From: Triparma columacea
Taxonomy: Eukaryota > Sar > Bolidophyceae > Parmales > Triparmaceae
DNA: 41,176 nucleotides
Assembly (NCBI GenBank): GCA_030267965.1
Contig: BRYA01000172.1
Coordinates: 1 to 41,176 of the forward strand
Direction of reading: 5' to 3'
The notes under the pieces were generated by a model. The model was not told where the DNA came from. It saw only the letters and a list, made by a program, of their open reading frames with translations, and made no database searches. The stretch's first letter is position 1. Each line of letters begins with the position of its first letter. The translations under genes and the position numbers were made by a program. Shown here piece after piece: positions 1-41,176 of this stretch.

Positions 1-381
1 ACACAATCACTGACGATGATACATATAAAGGCACAGCGACAAAGTGCGACCTCCCACACCGCCACAACTTACCAAAAATGGGAGGTTGGGAAATTGAGGG
101 AAAATCCTGGCGCACACGCACGAAGCAAATCCAACGGATGCAAAGAGAAAACCAAAATCTCAAAGTAAAAATGTTTGCGTTTGATGACGACATTGTGTTT
201 GTGTTTTCATGGCCATCCTACGAAACCCCCATTCCTCCATTCCCTCCCAACCGTGTGAACAAAGAATCACTGCACGCTTCTTTCATCTAGGTAGTGTCTC
301 TCCTGTCCTTCTCTCCGTGTTCACGAAACCCTCACCACCCGACCACTCCTCTCTCCCCCCCTAGGCACGAGGCTGGATGCC
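1..381 (-). repeat. Spacer copy A of the secreted-leader gene array
   Basis: This stretch matches 1990-2382 almost base for base, with small indels. It holds the 3' flank of the gene ending at 382 (shared string near 300-370 with cctaggcacgaggctgg) and, at its left end, the same upstream block that lies before the starts at 1866 and 3207 (tacatataaaggcacag, cgacctcccaca, cttaccaaaa). In the other two copies that block lies about 125-140 nt upstream of an ATG on the minus strand, so another leader-type gene probably begins just left of the window. The small plus-strand ORFs here look spurious. Confidence 0.8.
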
Positions 382-1866
382 CTAACAAACTCGGGAGGAA
401 CCGGTGTTGGCCTGAGCAGCCAACTGGGTCCACTCGTCCAACTCATACCCCAATTGACTGCCGCACTGTCCACACGCGGACTGGTAGTATTCGGTTCTGT
501 CGTCTCCTGGTACCTGAAAATTATCCAAATCCCAAGCCATGGGGTAAACTGGTGGTGTGGAAGAAGGGGTTAGAGAAGGAACAGAAAGTGTGGCATCCCA
601 GTTCAATAACCCTCCTCCCCCCCTGCTCACCTGTCCCCTTTGACTGATCCCACCGTGCAGCATAAAATTTGGTATTGGCCATCTTTGCGGGAGAGCAGAA
701 CCACTTATCGCAAGGGTTGCTGAGCGATTCCCCTCCACCGGCAGGGGCCGCCTCAATGAAGTTCCACTCCCCCCCGTCGTAAACCTCTACCCAGTTGTGG
801 TTGCCGTTCTCATAGACGTCGTTCCAAGCAGGAGTTCCGGCGACCCTGGCGGGGACCCCGACGCTCCTCAGTGCGTCTACGAAAAGTATGCTGACGCCGG
901 TGCAACTGGCGAAGCCGTACACGAGGGTAGACATCGGATCGTAGATCAAGGGGGTCTGGCCGCTCTTGAATACCACGGTCTGCGAAAGGTTGTTCGTCTG
1001 GGAGTTCCACATGTTGGAGTTTATCAGGCTCACCACGGAGCTAACATCAGTGGGGGGCTCGTCAGCCGCGTCAATTATGGCGGACATGGCGGAAGAGAGT
1101 AAGGGTCTAATGTTGTTCCTTCCCTCGTTCACGTTTGCGTAAGACGCGACGTATTCATTAAAGATCTGCGGGGGTTGGATTCGTTAGATAAATATAGGAG
1201 GCCGCGCTGCGTGTGCTCCTTTCCCCTCTCCAACCCCCCTTGCCCCCCCCCACCCCCACACCCAACCCCCCCTAACTTCCCTCAAACCGCCCTCACCTCT
1301 TGCTCCACCCCCTTGGCCCATTCATAACTCTGCAGGGCCTCCAGGGACACATTGAGGGCCACCGTCGCAATGCCGTCCTGTAAACCATCAATGTCAGGGA
1401 TGGAAGAACTGTGAAACCCAAGAGAAGCAGCATTTGTGACATCATAGGACGGAAGATTCATGTACAGGAAGTCGTATGCTGACGCATAAGCATCATCGAA
1501 GGACATACACCCCGAATCAAACTGAAGTACGACAAAGAACAGGGTGTTAAAGATGAGGAAGGTGTCGGACGATAGCACAATGGTCAACACATATGGACGT
1601 CAAGGCCTCACCTCAACCTCATCATCGCTGCAGACGTCCTCCCCGCCGCCCTTGGCCTTGCCGCCCTTGGCCTTGCCGCCCTTGGCCTTGCCCTTCCCTT
1701 TGAGCTTGCGTTGGGCAGGCTCATCGTTCATGTGGATCATAAGTCCATCATCAGTCTGGGTAGGTCCTTCGGCTTCCGGGGCGCGAAGATTGTCTGCAGA
1801 GGCTGTTTTAAGGTCTTTTGTCACCGCTAGGAGGACAAGGACGATGTAAGGTAGGATATTCTTCAT
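382..1866 (-). CDS. Secreted transglutaminase-like protein with Lys/Gly-rich leader
   Basis: Four exons read on the minus strand: 1866-1612, 1521-1297, 1165-631 and 548-382. They join to an open frame of 393 residues, with GTGAGG or GTGAGC donors and CAG acceptors. Residues 1-24 are a signal peptide (MKNILPYIVLVLLAV...ASA). The leader then reads DNLRAPEAEGPTQTDD, an RKLKGKGK motif and three KGGKA repeats encoded by a 15-nt tandem repeat. Exon 3 carries a transglutaminase-like fold: FASCTGVSILFVDALRSVGV holds the nucleophile Cys, NHNWVEVYDGGEWNFIEA holds the His and an acidic third residue. That matches the core of the transglut superfamily (PF01841), so acyl transfer or proteolysis outside the cell is likely. 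The Cys-containing tail (GQCGSQLGYELDEW...) resembles the tail of the next gene. Function beyond the fold is inferred. Confidence 0.82.
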
Positions 1867-2382
1867 GTCTGCGGTGTGGGACGGTCGCGGGAAGAGGGAA
1901 TATTGAGTGAAGCAGAAACAACCAACATTTTCGGGTTGTTTTGTGGGTTGATTAGATTTTACACTCTACGAAGCCACATGAGTGCCAAAAACACACAATC
2001 ACTGACGATGGTACATATAAAGGCACAGTGACAAAGTGCGACCTCCCACATCGCCACATCTTACCAAAAATGGAGGTTGGGAAATTGAGGGAAACCAAGA
2101 CAGGATGAGGAAAATCCAAGGCAAAAACAAACGAGAAACGAAAATCTCAAAGTAAAAACGTTTGCGTTTGATGACGACATTATGTTGATGTATTTATGTT
2201 TTCATGGCCTCCTACGGAGCCCCCATCCCTCCATTCCCTCCCAACCGCGTGAACCCCGTCAAAGAATCACTGCACGCTTCTTTCATTCTGCTTAGTGTCT
2301 CCCTGTTCTTCTCTCCGTGTTCACGAAACCCTCACACACCCGATCACTCCTCTCTCCCCCCCTAGGCACGAGGCTGGATGCC
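1867..2382 (-). promoter_or_regulatory. Spacer copy B: 3' flank of one leader gene and promoter of the next
   Basis: Homologous along its length to 1-381, and in its promoter half to 3208-3450. On the minus strand a TATA-like CTTTATATG lies at about 2014-2022, some 150 nt upstream of the ATG at 1866. The same string occurs at the same relative place in all three copies. The 3' part, near 2280-2380, is the conserved 3' flank of the gene ending at 2383. Promoter identity rests on position and conservation between copies. Confidence 0.6.
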
Positions 2383-3207
2383 CTAACAAAATTGGTAGGA
2401 ATCGATGTCGGCCTGACGAGCCAACTGGGTGCCCAACTCATTCGCCAACTGACTGTAAGTCTTGTTAACGATCTCAACGGGCTCAGGAAACCTAACCATG
2501 TACATAACATTCTTCGAGGTGCACACTGTTGCACCGTTTTCAACACAGAGAGCGTCACGGTAGATTTTGGCAGTGTTCCCATTCTTGCAAACTTGAACAT
2601 TTCCAGGAGCATAGCGGGGCGGGCCTGCAAGCGAGAGGAATTGTTCATCGCCTTCCATAGCTCCCAAATAGCCAGGGAAGGTTGTGAGAGCTAAACCAAT
2701 GTTACCCAAAAACGGGATTTCGTCGGTACCGTCAATAATGTTAACAAAATATTGTAGTCCGAAGTAGTTGCAGGAGGTGTTGGGTTCGGCTTGAGAGAAC
2801 CTAAACACAGCGTTTCCTTGAACAATAGGTCTACCGTCGTTGTAGTAGGTGGTGAGTGGGTCCAATACAAGCCAATCTCCTGAAATGTCCTGGCATCTCT
2901 GCGTCTGTGGGGAGAGGGGTAGGGGAGGGTATGTGGGTAGGTGCGAGTTAGTGTGTGTGTGATGGGTTCAGGGCAAAGGGAGTACCTGCAACCAAATTTG
3001 CCTCACCCCGTCACCCTTGCCCTTGCCCTTCCCTTTGAGCTTGCGGTGGACCTGCCCGTTCTCCACGTGGATCGTAAGTCCATCTGAATCATCAGTCTGG
3101 GTAGGTCCTTCGGCTTCCGGGGCGCGAAGATTGTCTGCAGAGGCTGTGTTAAGGTCTTTGGTCAACGCTAGGAGAAAGAAAGCGATGTTAAGTAGGATAT
3201 TCTTCAT
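2383..3207 (-). CDS. Secreted protein sharing leader and tail with its neighbour, unrecognised core
   Basis: Two minus-strand exons, 3207-2986 and 2904-2383, join in phase 0 to 247 residues. The first exon is nearly the same as that of the gene at 382-1866: signal peptide MKNILLNIAFFLLALTKDL, then NLRAPEAEGPTQTDD, then HRKLKGKGKGKGDG. The mature core (RCQDISGDWLVLDPLTTYY..., with CNYFGLQYFVNIIDG and YAPGNVQVCKNG) has about five Cys and no transglutaminase motif. I do not recognise its family; a small secreted beta-rich domain is possible. The last residues (SQLANELGTQLARQAD) and the 3' flank are again like the neighbour's. So the two genes are related at both ends but not in the middle. Confidence 0.78.
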
Positions 3208-3548
3208 ATCTGCGGTGTGTGACGGTCGCGGGAAGGGTAAGAAAAGGAAATATTGATTGTAGAAGTGGGAACATTCGATTCTTATTGTCCCGATATGGTT
3301 AGATTTTACATTCTACGAAGCCACATGAGTGCTAAAAGCACGCACAATCACATATGATGATACATATAAAGGCACAGTGACAAAGTGCGACCTCCCACAC
3401 CGCCACAACTTACCAAAAGTGGAGGATTGGGAAATTGGGAAAACCCAATGAGCTTGAGGAAAATCCAAGGCAAAAAACAATCGAGAAACGATGGATATAT
3501 CACACAAACACTAACACACACACAAACGCACGCACACACACACCCGTA
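3208..3548 (-). promoter_or_regulatory. Spacer copy C: conserved leader-gene promoter, then CA microsatellite
   Basis: From 3208 to about 3490 this matches the upstream blocks of the other two units, including the TATA-like string at about 3358-3369 and the cgacctcccacaccgcc block. The match stops before 3500. A CA-rich simple repeat (about 3504-3543) then separates the array from the OmpA-domain gene. There is no third tail or 3' flank here, so the array ends at this point. Confidence 0.6.
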
Positions 3549-5221
3549 CTAGATGCACCCTAAAACCGCCGCCTGAATGATAATCTCCCTCACGACATCA
3601 TCGTTAATATTTTTCCTCAACCCCATCAAGTAGATCACTCTAACTTTCTCCCACCTCCACCTCGCCTCGACCAGAACCTCAGCCGCGGCTCTCCTCAACC
3701 CCTTAGTCTGCGACTCGTCCACCGCTAGGGCAGCGAGAGTTCCAACAGCTGAGGAGTCATTCATTAAAGCGTCAGTCCTACCTAGAGACTTCATGCTATG
3801 CTTTGTTGAAAGCTCGCTTATGAGGAAGCAAACTCTTCTATTGAGAGCCCTATTCTCTCGCGTATCGTTGCTAACTACGGGTCTCTGTGGAAAGGGTTAA
3901 TAATAAAACATAAACCAAACCCTCCGAACATTTCTGTCCCCTCCCCCCACCTCACCTTCTCCCCGAAGCCCATAGCCTTAACCCTACTCTCTCCGACCCC
4001 CATATCTACAAGGTAACCCCTCACGGCGTCCGCCCTATCCTGAGATAGTTGTAAGTTAGTCCCGAATGGGTTATGTCTATCGTCCGTGTGTCCCTCTATC
4101 ACGATATGGTGGAACGGTTGGGAGGCTAGTAAACGGGCAACCTGCGAAAGCACCACTTTCGTCGACGACGTAGGGGTCTCGTCGTCAGAGTAGAGGTCTA
4201 ACTCAGAGGAACATGAGCTGAACTCAATTTGACAGTCGAGGTGGATAGTCTGGACAGTCTTGAAGGTAATGGTTGTGGTGGTGGACCTACTTCGAAGCTG
4301 GGGGTTCCGACGGAGTCTACCCATGCTGATGCCCTGCTCGCCAAGGGCCTTCTCAATGTTGGTTACTATATCCTCGGCGCCGTTTCCAGCTGGATAGCAG
4401 ATTTCAATTATCGACGAATTGACGTCATTCTCTTGTTTCTTAAGCTGCAGGGCAACATTCTCGACTTTCGCTAAGTCCACACGAGTTAGCTCGACGTCGC
4501 CCTCCCTAAACTCCAGCCGCTCCTTGATCACGAGTCCGATTCCCGACCTGTCGAACCGAGCGAGTTCCTTTTCATCTTAATCCTTGTCTTCCCTTTCTCC
4601 TATTTCATCTCCCACCTCGTCGTTTCCTTCCCCTCCATCCTCTTCCTCTTCGTTCACCTCAATCTCCCCAATCCCTATACCATAGTTAGCAACAACAAAA
4701 ACGAACAAGCAATGCGCTAACTTCCCGGCAAACTTGCTGCTCTCAAAGTTAACCGCATTAGCCCCCCCACCCTCCTCCCTCCTTACCAAGCCTCCCTGAA
4801 CGGCAATACCGTCACCCCCGACGCCCCATATCGGGGGCAGCTTGCTTCCCGAATCACCGGTCGATCTCCTCCTCCTAGGCTTGGGGTTCCACTTGGATGG
4901 AAAGGATAGATCTTTGACTAGATTGAGAGCATGAACTTCACCTCCGAGGGAAGTCGCGAGGAGCCGAATTTTGGTTGCATCCATGTTAGGTTCACCCGTG
5001 TAGTTCTGAGCTAAAGAGCGTAAGGTTGTGGTGAAGGAACCTACTAAGTCTGTCGATGAATTGGGGGAGGAGCCGAGGAGGAGACAGTGGAGGGAGCGTA
5101 AAATATTAGAAAGCGTTGACGATGGACGGTGAAGGGCGTGGGATGAACCGTCAACTTGAAGACGGCAACGGGCCCATGATAGGGCATCCATTTGCTGTTG
5201 CAAGGTAGGTGAGTACGCCAT
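3549..5221 (-). CDS. OmpA-family C-terminal domain membrane protein
   Basis: Minus-strand gene. The last two exons are clear: exon ending 3956 (GAGAAG|GTGAGG) joined to 3884-3549 (CCACAG acceptor). Together they rebuild an OmpA/MotB-like domain: IVIEGHTDD, NLQLSQDRADAVRGYLVDMG, VKAMGFGEK|RPVVSNDT and ENRALNRRVCFLI, with the conserved Asp, Arg and NRRV signature. In bacteria this domain binds peptidoglycan; its ligand in an alga is unknown. The N-terminal part (MAYSPTLQQQMDALSWARC) contains one probable membrane helix (KLAHCLFVFVVANY). An in-frame TAA at 4577-4579 separates the halves. An intron 4680-4576 (TATG|GTATAG...TTAAG) would remove it and give 498 residues, but the donor is weak. About 85 residues after the OmpA domain are unrecognised. 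Confidence 0.72.
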
Positions 5222-18044: not shown

Positions 18045-18103
18045 TTGATTTTAGAGTTTGAAAGTATAATCATCTAGTATTAATGGGTTTTGATTTTAGA
18101 GTT
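18045..18103. repeat. 14-bp direct repeats 45 bp apart at the end of the first LRR gene
   Basis: The string ttgattttagagtt occurs at 18045-18058 and again at 18090-18103. The 31 bp between them are absent from the same place in the other two units. Either a short tandem duplication that then diverged, or a small insertion that duplicated its target, would give this pattern. The second copy overlaps the TAA stop of the LRR gene. Confidence 0.6.
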
Positions 18104-18884
18104 ACAGGAATTCCAGAATAACTCTCCACATAACTTTCGGGAGCTTCTTGAATGCCGCAGTTCCCTGAAGCGCGACCACTTCATCTCCGTCAAGGCGCTT
18201 CCGCTTCAGCCTATCCGATCTCCTGGGTTGGACCTCCAAGAGTTTCTTGAGGCAGGCCAGAACGGTGACGCGTTCAAGTATGCGGTGCCACCTAGAATGG
18301 AGGAGGTCCTTGACAGTCGACATATTTTGATCGGCAGCTGCTGAGATAAGGGCGGTGCAGTTTGAGAAGCAGTCGTAGCCGATAGAGACCGCAGGAGCTA
18401 AACTGAGTCTTGTCAGGGCGGTGCATCCATGGAAGGCTTGATGGTGAATCGTCGTCACTGAGTCCGGGATGGTGATGGCCGCGAGAGAGGAGCATACCCA
18501 GAAGGCACGTTCGCCAATTGTCGTCACTCTGTCCGGAATGGTGATGGCCGTGAGAGAGGAGCATCCGTAGAAGGCGCATCTGCCAATCGTCGTCACCGAG
18601 TCCGGGATTGTGATGGCTGCGAGGGAGGAGCATCCTTCGAAGGCCCATCTTCCAATCGTCCTCACTCCGTCTGGGATTGTGATGGCTGTGAGGGAGGAGC
18701 AACTCGAGAAGGCGTATTGGTCAATCTTCGTCACTCCGTCCGGAATTGTGATGGCTGCGAGGGAGGAGCATCCCCAGAAGGCGCCCTCGCCAATCGTCGT
18801 CACTCCTTGTGCAAAAATCACCTCTGTGAGTTCACGATCATTCAGGAAGCTCTCTACGCCAGAGTATATTGCTGATTTGGGCAT
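18102..18884 (-). CDS. BspA-type leucine-rich repeat protein, array copy 1
   Basis: One exon, 260 residues, no signal peptide. After MPKSAIYSGVESFLNDRELTEV it has seven LRR_5 (BspA/TpLRR, PF13306) repeats of 23 residues with the consensus LxAITIPDxVTTIGxxAFxGCSS. The last repeat is divergent (LTRLSLAPAVSIGYDCFSNC). A C-terminal helical region follows (TVKDLLHSRWHRILERVTVL, then a basic RSDRLKRKR stretch) and ends LPKVMWRVILEFL. Repeats of this kind stack into a solenoid that binds proteins. The true partner is unknown. LxAxxIPD spacing is regular and all repeats are intact, so the gene looks functional. Confidence 0.88.
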   Translation of the reverse strand: MPKSAIYSGVESFLNDRELTEVIFAQGVTTIGEGAFWGCSSLAAITIPDGVTKIDQYAFSSCSSLTAITIPDGVRTIGRWAFEGCSSLAAITIPDSVTTIGRCAFYGCSSLTAITIPDRVTTIGERAFWVCSSLAAITIPDSVTTIHHQAFHGCTALTRLSLAPAVSIGYDCFSNCTALISAAADQNMSTVKDLLHSRWHRILERVTVLACLKKLLEVQPRRSDRLKRKRLDGDEVVALQGTAAFKKLPKVMWRVILEFL

Positions 18885-19314
18885 TTTGGTAAGGATTTGG
18901 GAAGGATGAAAGGATAAGTCCTCACAGCGCTTGAGTTAGGGTATGTCGTGAATGTTTAGATGGAGAAGAGGAGATTGAAAGTTAGGGAAATTGGCGGTGT
19001 AGTTTTTTGGGATCAAATTTGAGCTAAAATACAATGTTTTTGGATATGGCGTAGGTAGCAGAGTATCGTTGTGTTGGTATTTTGAAGATTTTGATCGGCC
19101 GTGAAACGTAGCTTAAGTGTATAATACAGTTTTCTTGTCAAATTCTGCCAAAATCTCCCACCAAGGTTTTCCTCATTTTCCTCATTTATTTTTCCTCTAC
19201 TTGGTGAGAGCTACTCTAAAATAGCTCAGTGAGTAGCATGAGCATGTCGCTTCTGAAAAGAGCTAAAGACTATGACACTTTTCTTGCCAACATTGTTCAA
19301 CATTGATTTTACAG
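18885..19314. other. Intergenic spacer between LRR copies 1 and 2
   Basis: This spacer carries the duplicated 5' flank of copy 1 and, from about 19237, the duplicated 3' flank of copy 2 (gagcatgtcgcttctgaaaagagctaaagac, also at 17979-18009). I see no gene in it. Confidence 0.7.
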
Positions 19315-20217
19315 TTACAGAAATTCCAGAATAACTCTCCACATAACCTTGGGGAGCCTCTTGCGTACCGCAGTTACCCCAAGTGTTTGCACTTCACCTC
19401 CGTCCTGTCGCTTCCTCTTTTTTTGGTCCGTATAGAGTGTCTTGAGGCAGGTCAGAACGGTGACGCGTTGAAGTATGCGGTGCCACCTAGAATGGAGGAG
19501 GTCCTTGACAGTCGACATATTTTGATCGGCAGCGGCGGCGTTTAGGGCATTGCAGTTCGAGAAGCAGCTGAAACCGACGGAGACGGCAGGAGATAAACTG
19601 AGTCTCGTCAGGGCAGAGCATCCGTAGAAGGCGCCACTGTGAATCCTCGTCACTGAGTCCGGGATGGTGATGGCCGCGAGGGAGGAGCATTCTTTGAAGG
19701 CCCAAGTGCCAATTATCGTCACTCCGTCCGGGATTGTGATAGCTCCGAGGGAGGAGCATCTGCAGAAGGTGCCAACGCCAATCATTGTCACTCCGTCCGG
19801 GATGGTGATGGCTGCGAGGGAGGAGCATGCACTGAAGGCGTCATCGCCAATCGATGTCACTCCATCCAAGATTGTGATGGCTGCGAGGGAAGAGCATCTG
19901 CTGAAGGCGCACTTGCAAATTGTCGTCACTCCGTCCGGGATTGTGATGGCCGTGAGCGAGGAGCATTCGTAGAAGGCGCCAGCGCCAATTATCGTCACTG
20001 AGTCCGGGATGGTGATGGCCGTGAGGGAGGAGCATCCGTAGAAGGCGCCCTCGCCAATTGTCGTCACTGAATCCGGGATTATGATGGCTGCGAGGGAGGA
20101 GCATGCCATGAAGGCGTATTGGTCAATTGTTGTCACTCCCTTTGCAAAAGTCACCTCTGTGAGCTCACGATCGCCAGAGAAAGTCTCTTTGCCAGAGTAC
20201 ACTGCTGAGTTGGGCAT
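19315..20217 (-). CDS. BspA-type leucine-rich repeat protein, array copy 2 (nine repeats)
   Basis: One exon. I place the start at 20217 (MPNSAVYSGKETFSGDRELTEV), the position matching the starts of the other copies; an upstream in-frame ATG at 20247 would add MSTNTFILPT. It then has 300 residues with nine 23-residue LRR_5 repeats, two more than copies 1 and 3. The extra repeats contain variants such as IGVGTFCRCSS and ICKCAFSRCSS. The C-terminal region is shorter than in copy 1 (KKRKRQDGGEV) but ends with the same LPKVMWRVILEFL. The difference in repeat number points to unequal crossing-over inside the array. Confidence 0.87.
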   Translation of the reverse strand: MPNSAVYSGKETFSGDRELTEVTFAKGVTTIDQYAFMACSSLAAIIIPDSVTTIGEGAFYGCSSLTAITIPDSVTIIGAGAFYECSSLTAITIPDGVTTICKCAFSRCSSLAAITILDGVTSIGDDAFSACSSLAAITIPDGVTMIGVGTFCRCSSLGAITIPDGVTIIGTWAFKECSSLAAITIPDSVTRIHSGAFYGCSALTRLSLSPAVSVGFSCFSNCNALNAAAADQNMSTVKDLLHSRWHRILQRVTVLTCLKTLYTDQKKRKRQDGGEVQTLGVTAVRKRLPKVMWRVILEFL

Positions 20218-20640
20218 TGTGGGAAGGATGAAAGTATTTGTGCTCACAGCGCTCGAGCTAGAGTATGGGGTATGGCGTGAATGTTTAGATGGAGAGGAGG
20301 TGAGTGAAAGTTAGGGATTTTGGCGGTGTAGTTTTTTGGGGACCAAATTTGAGCTTAAAATACAATATGTTTGGATATGATGTAGGTAGTAGTATCGTTG
20401 TTGGTATTGTGAAGAGTTAGGTTGGTTGTGAAACGTAGCTAAAGTGTATAATACAGTGTATGATCCAGATTTCTTGCCAATATTGTCCAAAACTTTCGCA
20501 AAGTCCCAAATCCGAACCAAAATGGTTTGAGGTTTTTGGCTCCGGAGACTCCAAAAAAGAAAGCGTTTGTTCGTAAGAAAGCATTGTGTTCGATAATATT
20601 GAAAGACCCTTCTGTGTGCTGTTCAACATTGATTTTAGAA
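20218..20640. other. Intergenic spacer between LRR copies 2 and 3
   Basis: The left part is the duplicated 5' flank of copy 2. The part from about 20460 to 20600 is unique to this spacer (tgatccagatttcttgccaatattg and the aaaagaaagcg region). The last 40 bp are the duplicated 3' flank of copy 3. No gene is seen. Confidence 0.65.
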
Positions 20641-21423
20641 TTACAGAAATTCCAGAATAACTCTCCACATAACCTTCGGGAGCTTCTTGAATGCCTTAGT
20701 TCCCTTCAGCGCGACCACTTCATCTCCGTCAAGGCGCTTCCGCTTCAGCCTATCCGATCTCCTGGGTTGGTCCTCCAAGAGTTTCTTGAGGCAGGCCAGA
20801 ACGGTGACGCGGTCACGTATGCGGTGCCACCTAGAATGGAGGAGGTCTGAGACAGTCGCCATATTCTGATCGGCAGCAACAGAGATTAGAACGGCGCAAT
20901 TTGAGAAGCAGTCGTAACCGATAGAGACCGCAGGAGATAAACTGAGTCTCGTTAGAGCGGTGCATCTGTCGAAGGCGTAATTGCCAATCATAGTCACCGA
21001 GTCCGGGATTGTGATGGCTGCTAGGGAGGAGCATCTCAAGAAGGCCTGAAAGCCAATCTTTGTCACTCCATCTGGGATTGTGATGGCTGCGAGGGAGGAG
21101 CATCTGTTGAAGGCATTTTCGCCAATCGTCATCACTGAGTCCGGGATTGTGATGGCTGCGAGGGAGGAGCATCCCCAGAAGGCGCCATTGCCAATCAAGG
21201 TAACTGAGTCCGAGATTGTGATGGCAGTAAGGGAGGAGCATCCTTTGAAGGCGTAATTGCCAATCGTCATCACAGAGTCTGGGATTGTGATGGCTGCGAG
21301 GGAGGAGCATTCCCTGAAGGCGTCTCTGTCAATCTTCGTCACTCCCCTTGCAAAAGTCACCTCTGTGAGTTCATGATCATCACAGAAGCTCTCTTTGCCA
21401 GAGTATACTGCTGATTTGGGCAT
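20641..21423 (-). CDS. BspA-type leucine-rich repeat protein, array copy 3
   Basis: One exon of 260 residues from the ATG at 21423 (MPKSAVYSGKESFCDDHELTEV). This is the same length as copy 1, with seven LRR_5 repeats and the same C-terminal block (RSDRLKRKRLDGDEV, ending LPKVMWRVILEFL). The frame stays open upstream to 21642, but those 73 extra residues match the conserved 5' flank of the other copies, which is noncoding there, so I reject the longer start. Copies 1 and 3 are more alike in the C-terminal part than either is to copy 2. Confidence 0.87.
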   Translation of the reverse strand: MPKSAVYSGKESFCDDHELTEVTFARGVTKIDRDAFRECSSLAAITIPDSVMTIGNYAFKGCSSLTAITISDSVTLIGNGAFWGCSSLAAITIPDSVMTIGENAFNRCSSLAAITIPDGVTKIGFQAFLRCSSLAAITIPDSVTMIGNYAFDRCTALTRLSLSPAVSIGYDCFSNCAVLISVAADQNMATVSDLLHSRWHRIRDRVTVLACLKKLLEDQPRRSDRLKRKRLDGDEVVALKGTKAFKKLPKVMWRVILEFL

Positions 21424-21959
21424 GTTGGGAAGGATTTGGAAGGATTTGGAAGGATTTGGGAAGGATGAAACTAATTGTACTGACAGCGCTTGAGTTAGGA
21501 TATGTCGTGAATGTTTAGATGGAGGAGGAGGAGATTGAAAGTTAGGGATTTGGGCGATGTAGTTTTGTTGGGAATCAAATTTGAGCTCAAAATACAATGT
21601 TTTTGGATATGGTGTAGGTAGTAGTATTGTTGTTGGTATCATGAAGAGTTAGGTCGGTTGTGAAACGTAGCTAAAGTTTATAATACAGTTTACTTGGCAA
21701 ATAATGCCCAAATCAAAAACCCTCTTTTCCTCATTTTCCCGAGCAATCTGGAATAGCCCTTCAAAGCTCAAATTGTTAGTTTGTTACGATATAGTTGTAG
21801 TAGTTGTGCTTAAACAATACACATATAGCTATATCTTGCGTTATATTGGATATAGGGATAATACAGGGAGTTATAACAGTCCACAATCATCGAGGTGACA
21901 TAAGTGAAGTTCAATTTGCTCCTCATTTTCCGACTCTTTTCTACAAGCACATACATATT
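21424..21959. promoter_or_regulatory. Divergent upstream region of LRR copy 3 and carbamoyltransferase
   Basis: The part to about 21690 is the duplicated LRR 5' flank, with three tandem ggaaggattt units at about 21428-21460. The rest (21700-21959) is AT-rich with tatagctatatcttg and tacatatta strings and is the upstream region of the plus-strand gene at 21960. No other gene is seen. Confidence 0.55.
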
Positions 21960-40000: not shown

Positions 40001-41176
40001 CTGGCACTTGTTCTGATTGCCTAAAAGGTAAGTACCCCACTTCTCTTCAATCCTTTCCTTTCAACACAATCTAACTCACTCCCAACAGGCACCTACAGCA
40101 GATCTCAATCAGAGACTTGCACAAACTGCCCTGAAGGGAAGTACACTGAGGCAGACTCCTCCACCACTTGCACTGGCTGCTCTGTGGGCAAGTACGTACC
40201 CACTGAAGGTTCCTTCTCCCAGTATGACTGCATCAATTGTGAAGCAGGAAAGTACCAGGCTTTTGCTGGTCAGGCTCGGTGTGAAGAGTGCTCAAGTGGA
40301 ACATACTCTGCCGAAATGGCAAGAGTTTGTACTGCTTGCCCTCCAGGGACATATTCGTCTACAGATTCAGCTACAGGGTGCTCAGAGTGCACAGTAGGAA
40401 AATACACATCAAGTCCAGGTAGCACAACATGCTTTTATTGCCCATTGGGAGAGTACAATGTCGGCATAGCCAATGTTGGATGTACATTTTGCGAGGCTGG
40501 AAAGTTTCTTGTCTTTGATGTCTTTGATACTGACCATAAGTGCAGGGCATGCCCTGCTGGGAAGTTCAGTGTGGTCGGAGACATCCTCTGCAGGACCTGT
40601 GAAGTTGGATTTGTCAGCAACAATCCAGAAGGTGCCAGCTTTTGCGAGCCGTGCGATGCAGGCAAGTACGCTAGTGCTGATGCTGCAACGTGTGTAGGCT
40701 GCGAAGCAGGGTTTTGGAGCAGTCTTGCCTCCACTTCTTGCACTGCTTGCGAAGTTGGCAAATTCAACACTGCCTTAAATTCAACTAGCTGCAGCTGGTG
40801 TACGGATGACACTGTTAGGGGCTCAACAACAGACTTGGTAGCCTCCAATTCTTCATCACAATGTCGCTGCGATGCTGGATTCTTTGAGAGTTCTCAATCC
40901 TGCGAAGCTGTGGGAGAAGGGATGGACTCTGAAACAAAGGGGATGACTACATCACTACTTAAAATTCAAAAAGGCTACTGGCGGACAGGTGCTGATTCAC
41001 TCAACATTCTTGCATGCCAGAATAAGGAGCACTGTTTAGGGGGGACAGATCCCAACAACTACTGCGCTGAAGGCTATGGTGGACCCCTCTGCGCTGTCTG
41101 TATAGATGGCTACAGTGCCGTTGGTGCTGGAGAAGGTCTATCATGTAGTAAATGTGAAGGTTCTGCAACAGCTACT
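37023..41176 (+). CDS. Large surface protein with CUB, EGF-like, beta-helix and Cys-rich repeats (partial)
   Basis: Six exons in view (37023-37143, 37230-37685, 37763-37969, 38066-39736, 39845-40027, 40089 onward); the frame is open at the window end. A signal anchor sits at residues 24-38 (MWICIVTLLSIATMV). A hydrophilic part carries three copies of a (V/I)xDPxxQPAPxPP motif, then two hydrophobic stretches (LVLFFTVLDLFGMAAFYVI, FNIVMLNCIVMQG). A CUB-like domain follows (CFSSLNYGSNEQCTFTM, YDKLTVGGIQYDG), two near-identical EGF-like repeats (DDGSDGNFYCINGGD...CTCSSCNTG), a right-handed beta-helix segment (GTLILRALTFDKG, GGGAIYVLDSGTTVNVYG) and at least ten GCC2/GCC3-type Cys-rich repeats (CPEGKYTEADSSTTCTGC). 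The last visible part, GYGGPLCAVCIDGYSA, usually precedes membrane helices in such proteins. It is probably a cell-surface receptor or adhesin; the ligand is unknown. Confidence 0.85.

Follow-up and report, generated by a model that had tools for sequence, protein, structure and literature searches.

The window analysed here, the 41,176-nucleotide contig BRYA01000172.1 of Triparma columacea (assembly GCA_030267965.1), comes from a microscopic marine alga of the Parmales, the sister group of diatoms. It contains two adjacent minus-strand genes, A (2383-3207) and B (382-1866), with flanks, leader and C-terminal tail in common and different cores. They belong to a family in which one leader, composed of a putative signal peptide, a propeptide, an RxL motif and a Lys/Gly tract, precedes five different cores in one genome: core 1 (gene A), a transglutaminase (gene B) and the cores found on contigs C220, C262 and C388. 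Gene B is almost certainly a chimera, and its cargo, like that of C262, has a free-standing relative with its own signal-peptide-like start.

The data are probably best accounted for by a family with one 5′ unit (flank and leader), in many copies also one 3′ unit (tail and 3′ flank), recombined cargos and a wall-directed leader. Copies would have arisen by tandem and dispersed duplication, and ectopic recombination would have placed unrelated mature domains into the frame; we infer the order and direction of these events. Ectopic recombination suffices for this, and we saw no machinery dedicated to swapping. Domain recruitment is caught nearly in the act, as leader, tail and a free-standing enzyme relative are all at hand and the protein joins can be placed to the residue. 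The family is also a starting point for asking how proteins might reach the silica plates of Parmales.

Genes A and B share their ends but not their cores

Self-comparison of positions 1-5000 revealed a leader/start block of 148 nucleotides (nt) at 91% identity (1747-1894 vs 3088-3235), a tail/stop block of 94 nt at 90% identity (336-429 vs 2337-2430) and a 95-nt flank block at position 2 with copies at 1994 (87%) and 3343 (92%), besides further colinear blocks. Two neighbouring genes with shared ends and different cores, as an earlier note on this DNA had described them, are thus confirmed. Its statement that the spacer copies are nearly identical was too strong: the flanks are indeed repeated, with 86% (1-429) and 80% (3209-3491) identity to the A-B spacer within the window and 73-95% elsewhere. 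The exons of gene A are those of the NCBI protein TrCOL_g4784 (P0125), while the exon model of gene B is our own prediction from the sequence; all of its introns are GT..AG (Table 1).

The core of A is predicted by AlphaFold2 to be an all-beta barrel with a C-terminal helix; a tentative candidate for its family is the calycin/lipocalin barrel, defined by eight strands and a GxW motif. The fold of B was taken from its Pfam family, PF01841, the A core being the only one of the two submitted to AlphaFold2. On the predicted barrel in A and PF01841 in B we reject the idea that the two cores are diverged copies of one fold, an alternative named in the earlier note, and by sequence the cores match at chance level only (E 0.64).

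One leader precedes five cores

In the genome set searched (37.85 Mb in 789 contigs; the published T. columacea genome comprises 43.0 Mb in 1,858 scaffolds, PMC10328945), we found the leader in 15 places on 11 contigs by DNA search and in 17 places by protein search, two of them weak (C658 and C16). It is therefore not restricted to the two genes of the window. Ten of the 15 DNA copies precede core 1 (C171, C404, C553, C248, C263 twice, C777 three times and C265). The remaining five comprise one before the transglutaminase (B), three before other unrelated cores (C220, C262 and C388) and one in C16 that looks like a frame-broken relic. Core 1 itself yields 11 matches, all behind the leader (11/11), that of the eleventh (C553b) being interrupted by a run of N. 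When seven cores were compared pairwise, with C220 and the transglutaminase represented by one exon each, the best match reached only E 0.51. Pfam gave no family above cut-off for the core of A, C220, C262, the second gene of C404 or the searched part of C507. The earlier note had named many loci with the same leader and tail around unrelated cores as the support to look for; the same leader does precede five cores, whereas leader and tail together enclose an unrelated core in B only. A scan of viral contigs with a 23-mer of the leader gave 0 matches. In the C265 copy, a stop codon soon interrupts the core-1 reading frame and the C-terminus differs; this copy may be either decayed or differently spliced.

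Gene B is almost certainly a chimera of family gene and transglutaminase

As the earlier note had said of one of the two cores, the core of B is transglutaminase-like (Transglut_core, PF01841, E 4.4e-13, 49.9 bits vs a cut-off of 23, residues 135-210 of the searched segment). Its cysteine in (F/Y)ASCTG and histidine in NHNW, candidate members of a catalytic Cys-His-acid triad, agree by eye with those of P0001-P0005, P0013 and P0036. The first of these, P0001 (TrCOL_g1057), is a leaderless T. columacea transglutaminase of 308 aa with its own signal-peptide-like start and a C-terminal end GQC. Residues 79-367 of B are 93.8% identical to residues 19-308 of P0001, from CSDDEVE to the last residue, and past this end B continues in frame within the same exon for 26 more residues that form an A-like tail. 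Among the best 120 of 620 relatives found, none (0/120) contains leader or tail words; 63 of these 120 show the C-end motif, and 43 of the 63 terminate exactly at it.

The family parts of B may have more than one donor. Its tail matches that of A at 0.826 over 69 nt, compared with at most 0.667 for nine other core-1 tails, and its leader (0.867, 12 compared) and 3′ flank (0.88, 10 compared) are likewise nearest those of A. Over DNLRAPEAEGPTQTD the leader is identical to A at 45/45 nt, and equally so to C404 (45/45). Over MNDEPAQRKLK, 27/33 nt agree with C388 and 23/33 with A, and the next window gives 0.93 vs 0.78. The resemblance to C388 extends from MNDEPAQRKL through the KAKGG tract and GACGTCTGC, as far as the cysteine codon with which the transglutaminase opens. 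B thus looks like a mosaic of three sources, because the middle of its leader resembles A and C404, the leader end resembles C388 and the core is a transglutaminase. On this reading, everything in a transglutaminase gene that encodes the mature protein would have passed into B; the introns of B make copying at the DNA level most likely. The enzyme would have been joined on its N-side to a C388-like leader end and on its C-side, in frame, to an A-like tail.

Several points weigh against this reconstruction. The 5′ flank of B is not nearest to that of A (C388 0.830, C220 0.819, A 0.818), and two 30-nt windows at alignment columns 120-180 of the leader favour A over C388; the mosaic was read by eye. 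No leaderless copy of the enzyme of B, P0001 included, is present in the genome set, P0001 being known from the protein database. The direction of copying, from P0001 to B, is assumed, because the DNA of the P0001 locus with its introns and flanks lies outside the searched genome.

An assembler might also have joined the B leader to a transglutaminase in a repeated region, given the tandem repeats, the N runs near relatives in a draft assembly and that we know of just one record of B. The core of B, however, is a sequence of its own, as its identity to P0001 is 93.8% and not 100%; the reading frame runs through both joins, and all introns are canonical. In addition, two environmental proteins carry the family leader fused to other cores. 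One is P0141, whose core is 63% identical to that of C220; the other, P0143, is related to the C388 core only distantly, and its identity of only 33% makes it a weaker case for our reading. Such fusions are therefore not accidents of one assembly, and we regard an artefact as very unlikely.

Other cargos and varying joins

The core of C262 is 81% identical, over 73% of the query, to the environmental protein P0144, which has its own signal-peptide-like start and reads MTKFLLLPLLTASAFASKTYCPV at the position of the KG tract and KTYCPV of C262. This N-side join is of the same kind as that of B, and where a free-standing relative is known (B and C262) the join falls directly behind the signal-peptide-like start of that relative. 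The predicted structure of the C262 core (predicted local distance difference test 89.3, predicted template modelling score 0.88) matches GH7 in Foldseek at E 1.3e-9. Glucanases of GH7 and GH16 share a jelly roll fold and an ExDxxE rule, and residues E90, D92 and E95 of C262 are invariant in 11 sequences. We suggest that this core folds like GH7/GH16 glucanases. Searches of solved structures by sequence with C262 and with B returned low-complexity or chance-level matches only.

No second genome copy was found for the cores of C262, C388, the second gene of C404 or C507; only the C220 core has such relatives (C277). For C388, the second gene of C404 and C507, whose relatives were sought inside the genome only, this counts against an origin by recruitment. 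In the C388 core an EF-hand pair stays below the Pfam cut-offs (EF-hand_7 23.2 bits vs 30, EF-hand_8 21.8 vs 28). The C220-core relatives lie at C277:24133-27895, apparently three in tandem, with 40-53% identity. The first of them, the one whose start was read, has a different leader, again with RxL and KGKGKGK, which likewise counts against our reading.

Searching the genome with the A-B spacer gave 27 matches and led to genes that have only flank DNA in common with the family. In the second gene of C404, the family 5′ flank ends at the start codon and the 3′ flank sets in 19 nt past the stop, with a different coding sequence in between; this gene therefore shares both flanks but not the leader. 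C507 and the fourth gene of C777 (17898-18323, 141 aa) share only the 3′ flank, and C12 merely a 58-nt piece of the 5′ flank, beyond which 1.8 kb of sequence showed no gene with a signal peptide, RxL and K/G build. Three of the four flank-only loci (C404 second gene, C507 and C777 fourth gene) also encode a signal-peptide-like start, an RxL and a K/G-rich stretch. C220, C262 and C388 share only the 5′ part with the family.

The repeated use of one frame with several cargos, and the head-to-tail pairs or triples of family genes in C171, C263, C553 and C777, would suit a programmed form of recombination, or a mobile cassette whose ends are defined. The join points vary, however: they lie close to the start of translation in the second gene of C404, behind SDGLTI in C220, at the mature start in B and C262, and within the last exon in B. 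Inverted repeats found in 1-5000 have merely CA-rich arms. We saw no defined ends, target site or swapping machinery, although no recombinase search was made. Dedicated machinery is extremely unlikely. Of the cassette system proposed in the earlier note, the swapping of cargo stands (B, C262); a dedicated system is doubtful, as 10 of the 15 leader copies keep the same core family.

Leaders are more alike than the core-1 sequences behind them

To compare ends and cores, we used the nine core-1 genes with whole leaders (36 pairs). Mean identity is 0.83 upstream, 0.85 for tract plus intron and 0.73 for the 3′ flank. In the leader the mean synonymous (pS) and nonsynonymous (pN) differences are 0.077 and 0.083, compared with 0.263 and 0.252 in the core, and leader pS is below core pS in 35 of the 36 pairs. 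Because the similarity of leaders exceeds that of cores at synonymous sites too, we consider it somewhat more plausible than otherwise that the ends were exchanged or converted among the core-1 copies while the cores diverged. The data of the 5′ unit also reject the core tree (p-AU 4e-7), and an exchange of 5′ units among copies is likely; gene conversion is the cause that we would propose. The earlier note had offered gene conversion of the ends as the alternative to a cassette system, and both hold in part. The ends do look exchanged or homogenised among core-1 copies, and cores such as those of B and C262 were swapped as well. Two points weigh against the exchange: the 5′ tree is compatible with the core data (p-AU 0.10), and the leader has just ~42 synonymous sites, so that constraint could likewise hold it alike.

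Conserved ends with diversifying cores are familiar from conotoxin-type families, and the ends might here be kept alike by purifying selection, with the cores evolving faster under diversifying selection. Codon models give a core omega of 1.21 (GY) and 1.09 (MG) for 10 genes, and pN exceeds pS in 27 of 45 core pairs. Diversification of the cores is accordingly possible, although an omega near 1 may also fit relaxed constraint. For the leader, however, omega is also ~1 (1.37 and 1.07, 9 genes; pN > pS in 21 of 36 pairs), which argues against strong purifying selection on it. Selection likewise leaves the conflict between 5′ unit and core tree, and unrelated cores such as those of B and C262, unexplained. 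We therefore consider it unlikely, if still a serious alternative, that selection in place of conversion keeps the ends alike.

The leader resembles silica-wall precursors of diatoms

The putative signal peptide of the family leader, judged by eye, has a hydrophobic N-terminus and an ASA site. In all five leader types examined, an RxL lies at most 9 residues before a Lys-rich stretch, an arrangement that occurs in 3-14% of shuffles of each. The HRKL of the leader recurs in P0130 and P0132 of T. retinervis. Diatom silaffin precursors contain a signal peptide, an acidic domain, RXL and lysine clusters (PMC4557024), and these clusters target the frustule (PMC9650480). Five lysines within 12-14 residues, as clusters are defined in PMC9650480, are present for example in KLKGKGKGKG of gene A. 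In Parmales, Ban et al. (2023) describe silicon transporters and silicanin homologues with RXL (PMC10328945); in the excerpted text the word silaffin occurs once, in a reference title.

The leader may direct its cargo into the secretory pathway. An RxL endoprotease would then cut off the propeptide, leaving the Lys/Gly tract N-terminal, where it would send the cargo to the silicified cell covering or hold it there. As the build of the leader matches silaffin precursors and Parmales have silicanin with RXL, secretion, RxL trimming and Lys/Gly-driven association with the covering appear the likeliest working, with the wall part itself at slightly less than an even chance. If so, a transglutaminase cross-linker and a glucanase-like enzyme would be among the cargos recruited to the silica wall. 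More tentatively, Parmales might possess a modular silica-wall delivery tag (signal peptide, RxL and Lys/Gly tract) in a shared expression frame. Recombination would recruit enzymes and binding barrels to it, the wall proteome would thereby evolve through the exchange of cargos, and C777's fourth gene would count among that unit as a silaffin-like member.

Against a wall-directed leader, some of the five RxL cases depend on one another (C220 and C277 being relatives) and the stretch of the C404 second gene has only 6 residues, and the RxL result is for these reasons support but not proof. The KG pattern is not specific to the family, as repeats coding for KGKGKGKGK occur in 76 places of the genome vs 40 in a reversed control. 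The tract also has no serine, unlike silaffin clusters. CinW2 constructs with mutated or deleted lysine stretches were not mislocalised (PMC9650480).

These points leave room, at rather less than even probability, for a plain secreted-protein family with chance fusions, in which the leader would be no more than a general signal for secretion, with the Lys/Gly tract as a linker and no wall targeting. Sharing of signal sequences through ectopic recombination is already known (PMC3434034), 10 of the 15 leader copies keep one core family, and the wall location of the family proteins is a prediction. What a plain family accounts for less readily is that RxL and Lys/Gly remain beside different cores, and that three genes reached only via flank DNA show the same build with other leaders.

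At C777:17898-18323 (minus strand), the fourth gene of that contig encodes a protein of 141 aa that looks secreted. Two KGGKPGKGG blocks flank its acidic spacer, which contains RHL and RGL; this build is silaffin-like, and the gene has the family 3′ flank. Further KG-repeat loci are C188, C218, C225, C469 and C658. An oomycete RxLR or malaria PEXEL reading of "LRALE" was rejected, because LRA/LRT/LRS is followed by L in part of the copies but by P in the rest.

Relation to known systems

A conserved N-terminal part before varied C-terminal parts is known from oomycete Crinkler effectors and frog preprodermaseptins, which the Triparma family resembles by description. In Schistosoma japonicum, one core promoter and signal sequence is dispersed before different products and ectopic recombination was proposed; there, no relatives were found in other organisms and flanking retroelements were invoked (PMC3434034). 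Triparma, in contrast, has a complete known enzyme with a free-standing relative, a shared 3′ end, a processing-like site and a polycation tract. In malaria parasites, leader exons with a signal sequence and the PEXEL export motif, bounded by a phase-0 intron, are thought to have been acquired by existing genes, and FIKK orthologues of other species are without the leader (PMC1431722). Triparma differs from these in compartment and lineage, in an RxL that precedes a Lys/Gly tract, in joins of B that lie inside exons and in the reuse of 3′ ends. Diatom silaffins and cingulins share with the leader a signal peptide (putative in Triparma), an acidic stretch (silaffin), RXL and lysine-rich stretches, but their lysine stretches lie in repeats or in Ser/Gly-rich mature parts (PMC4557024, PMC9650480), whereas the KG tract of Triparma heads a folded domain. 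In the open-licence literature we found no publication on the Triparma leader family or on Triparma together with transglutaminase, and for Triparma with silaffin solely PMC10328945.

Features of the window

Table 1. Family features at the start of the window, all on the minus strand.
Feature	Position	Strand	Remarks
5′ flank (promoter region) of gene A, recurs upstream of other family genes	3208..3491	-	self-comparison and spacer matches (3209-3491, 80%)
Gene A exon 1, encoding a putative signal peptide (end at ASA/DN judged by eye), an HRKL-containing propeptide and the tract KGKGKGKGDG	3007..3207	-	
Gene A exon 2, encoding core 1 (a predicted beta-barrel) and closing with the C-terminal tail TYSQLANELGTQLARQADIDSYQFC and the stop codon	2383..2904	-	
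A-B spacer between the stop codon of A and the start codon of B, at once 3′ flank of the former and 5′ flank of the latter	1867..2382	-	
Gene B exon 1	1612..1866	-	leader to RKL 1702-1866; K/A/G tract 1642-1701; EDV; transglutaminase CSDDEVE from 1632
Gene B exon 2, transglutaminase-derived	1297..1521	-	
Gene B exon 3, encoding Transglut_core with the cysteine of FASCTG and the histidine of NHNW	631..1165	-	
Gene B exon 4	382..548	-	transglutaminase end (to GQC, 463), then, in the same exon, A-like tail GSQLGYELDEWTQLAAQANTGSSRVC and stop 382-462
Transglutaminase-derived segment of B, corresponding to TrCOL_g1057 (P0001) from its mature start to its end (residues 19-308)	463..1632	-	
3′ flank of gene B	1..381	-	nearest to that of A among ten compared

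Elsewhere in the window, three tandem open reading frames on the minus strand (18102-21642; 18102-18884, 19315-20247 and 20641-21642) resemble BspA-type leucine-rich repeats; the first, the only one of the three scanned, matches LRR_5 at E 6.6e-57. Peptidase S46, a family best known from bacteria, is encoded in this algal contig at 29932-31587 (minus strand, E 6.4e-95), and an OmpA-family domain in the same eukaryotic contig at 3875-4531 (minus strand, E 7.1e-15). Ephrin-receptor-like and NCD3G cysteine-rich repeats are found at 40184-41176 (plus strand), in a frame that is open at the contig end.

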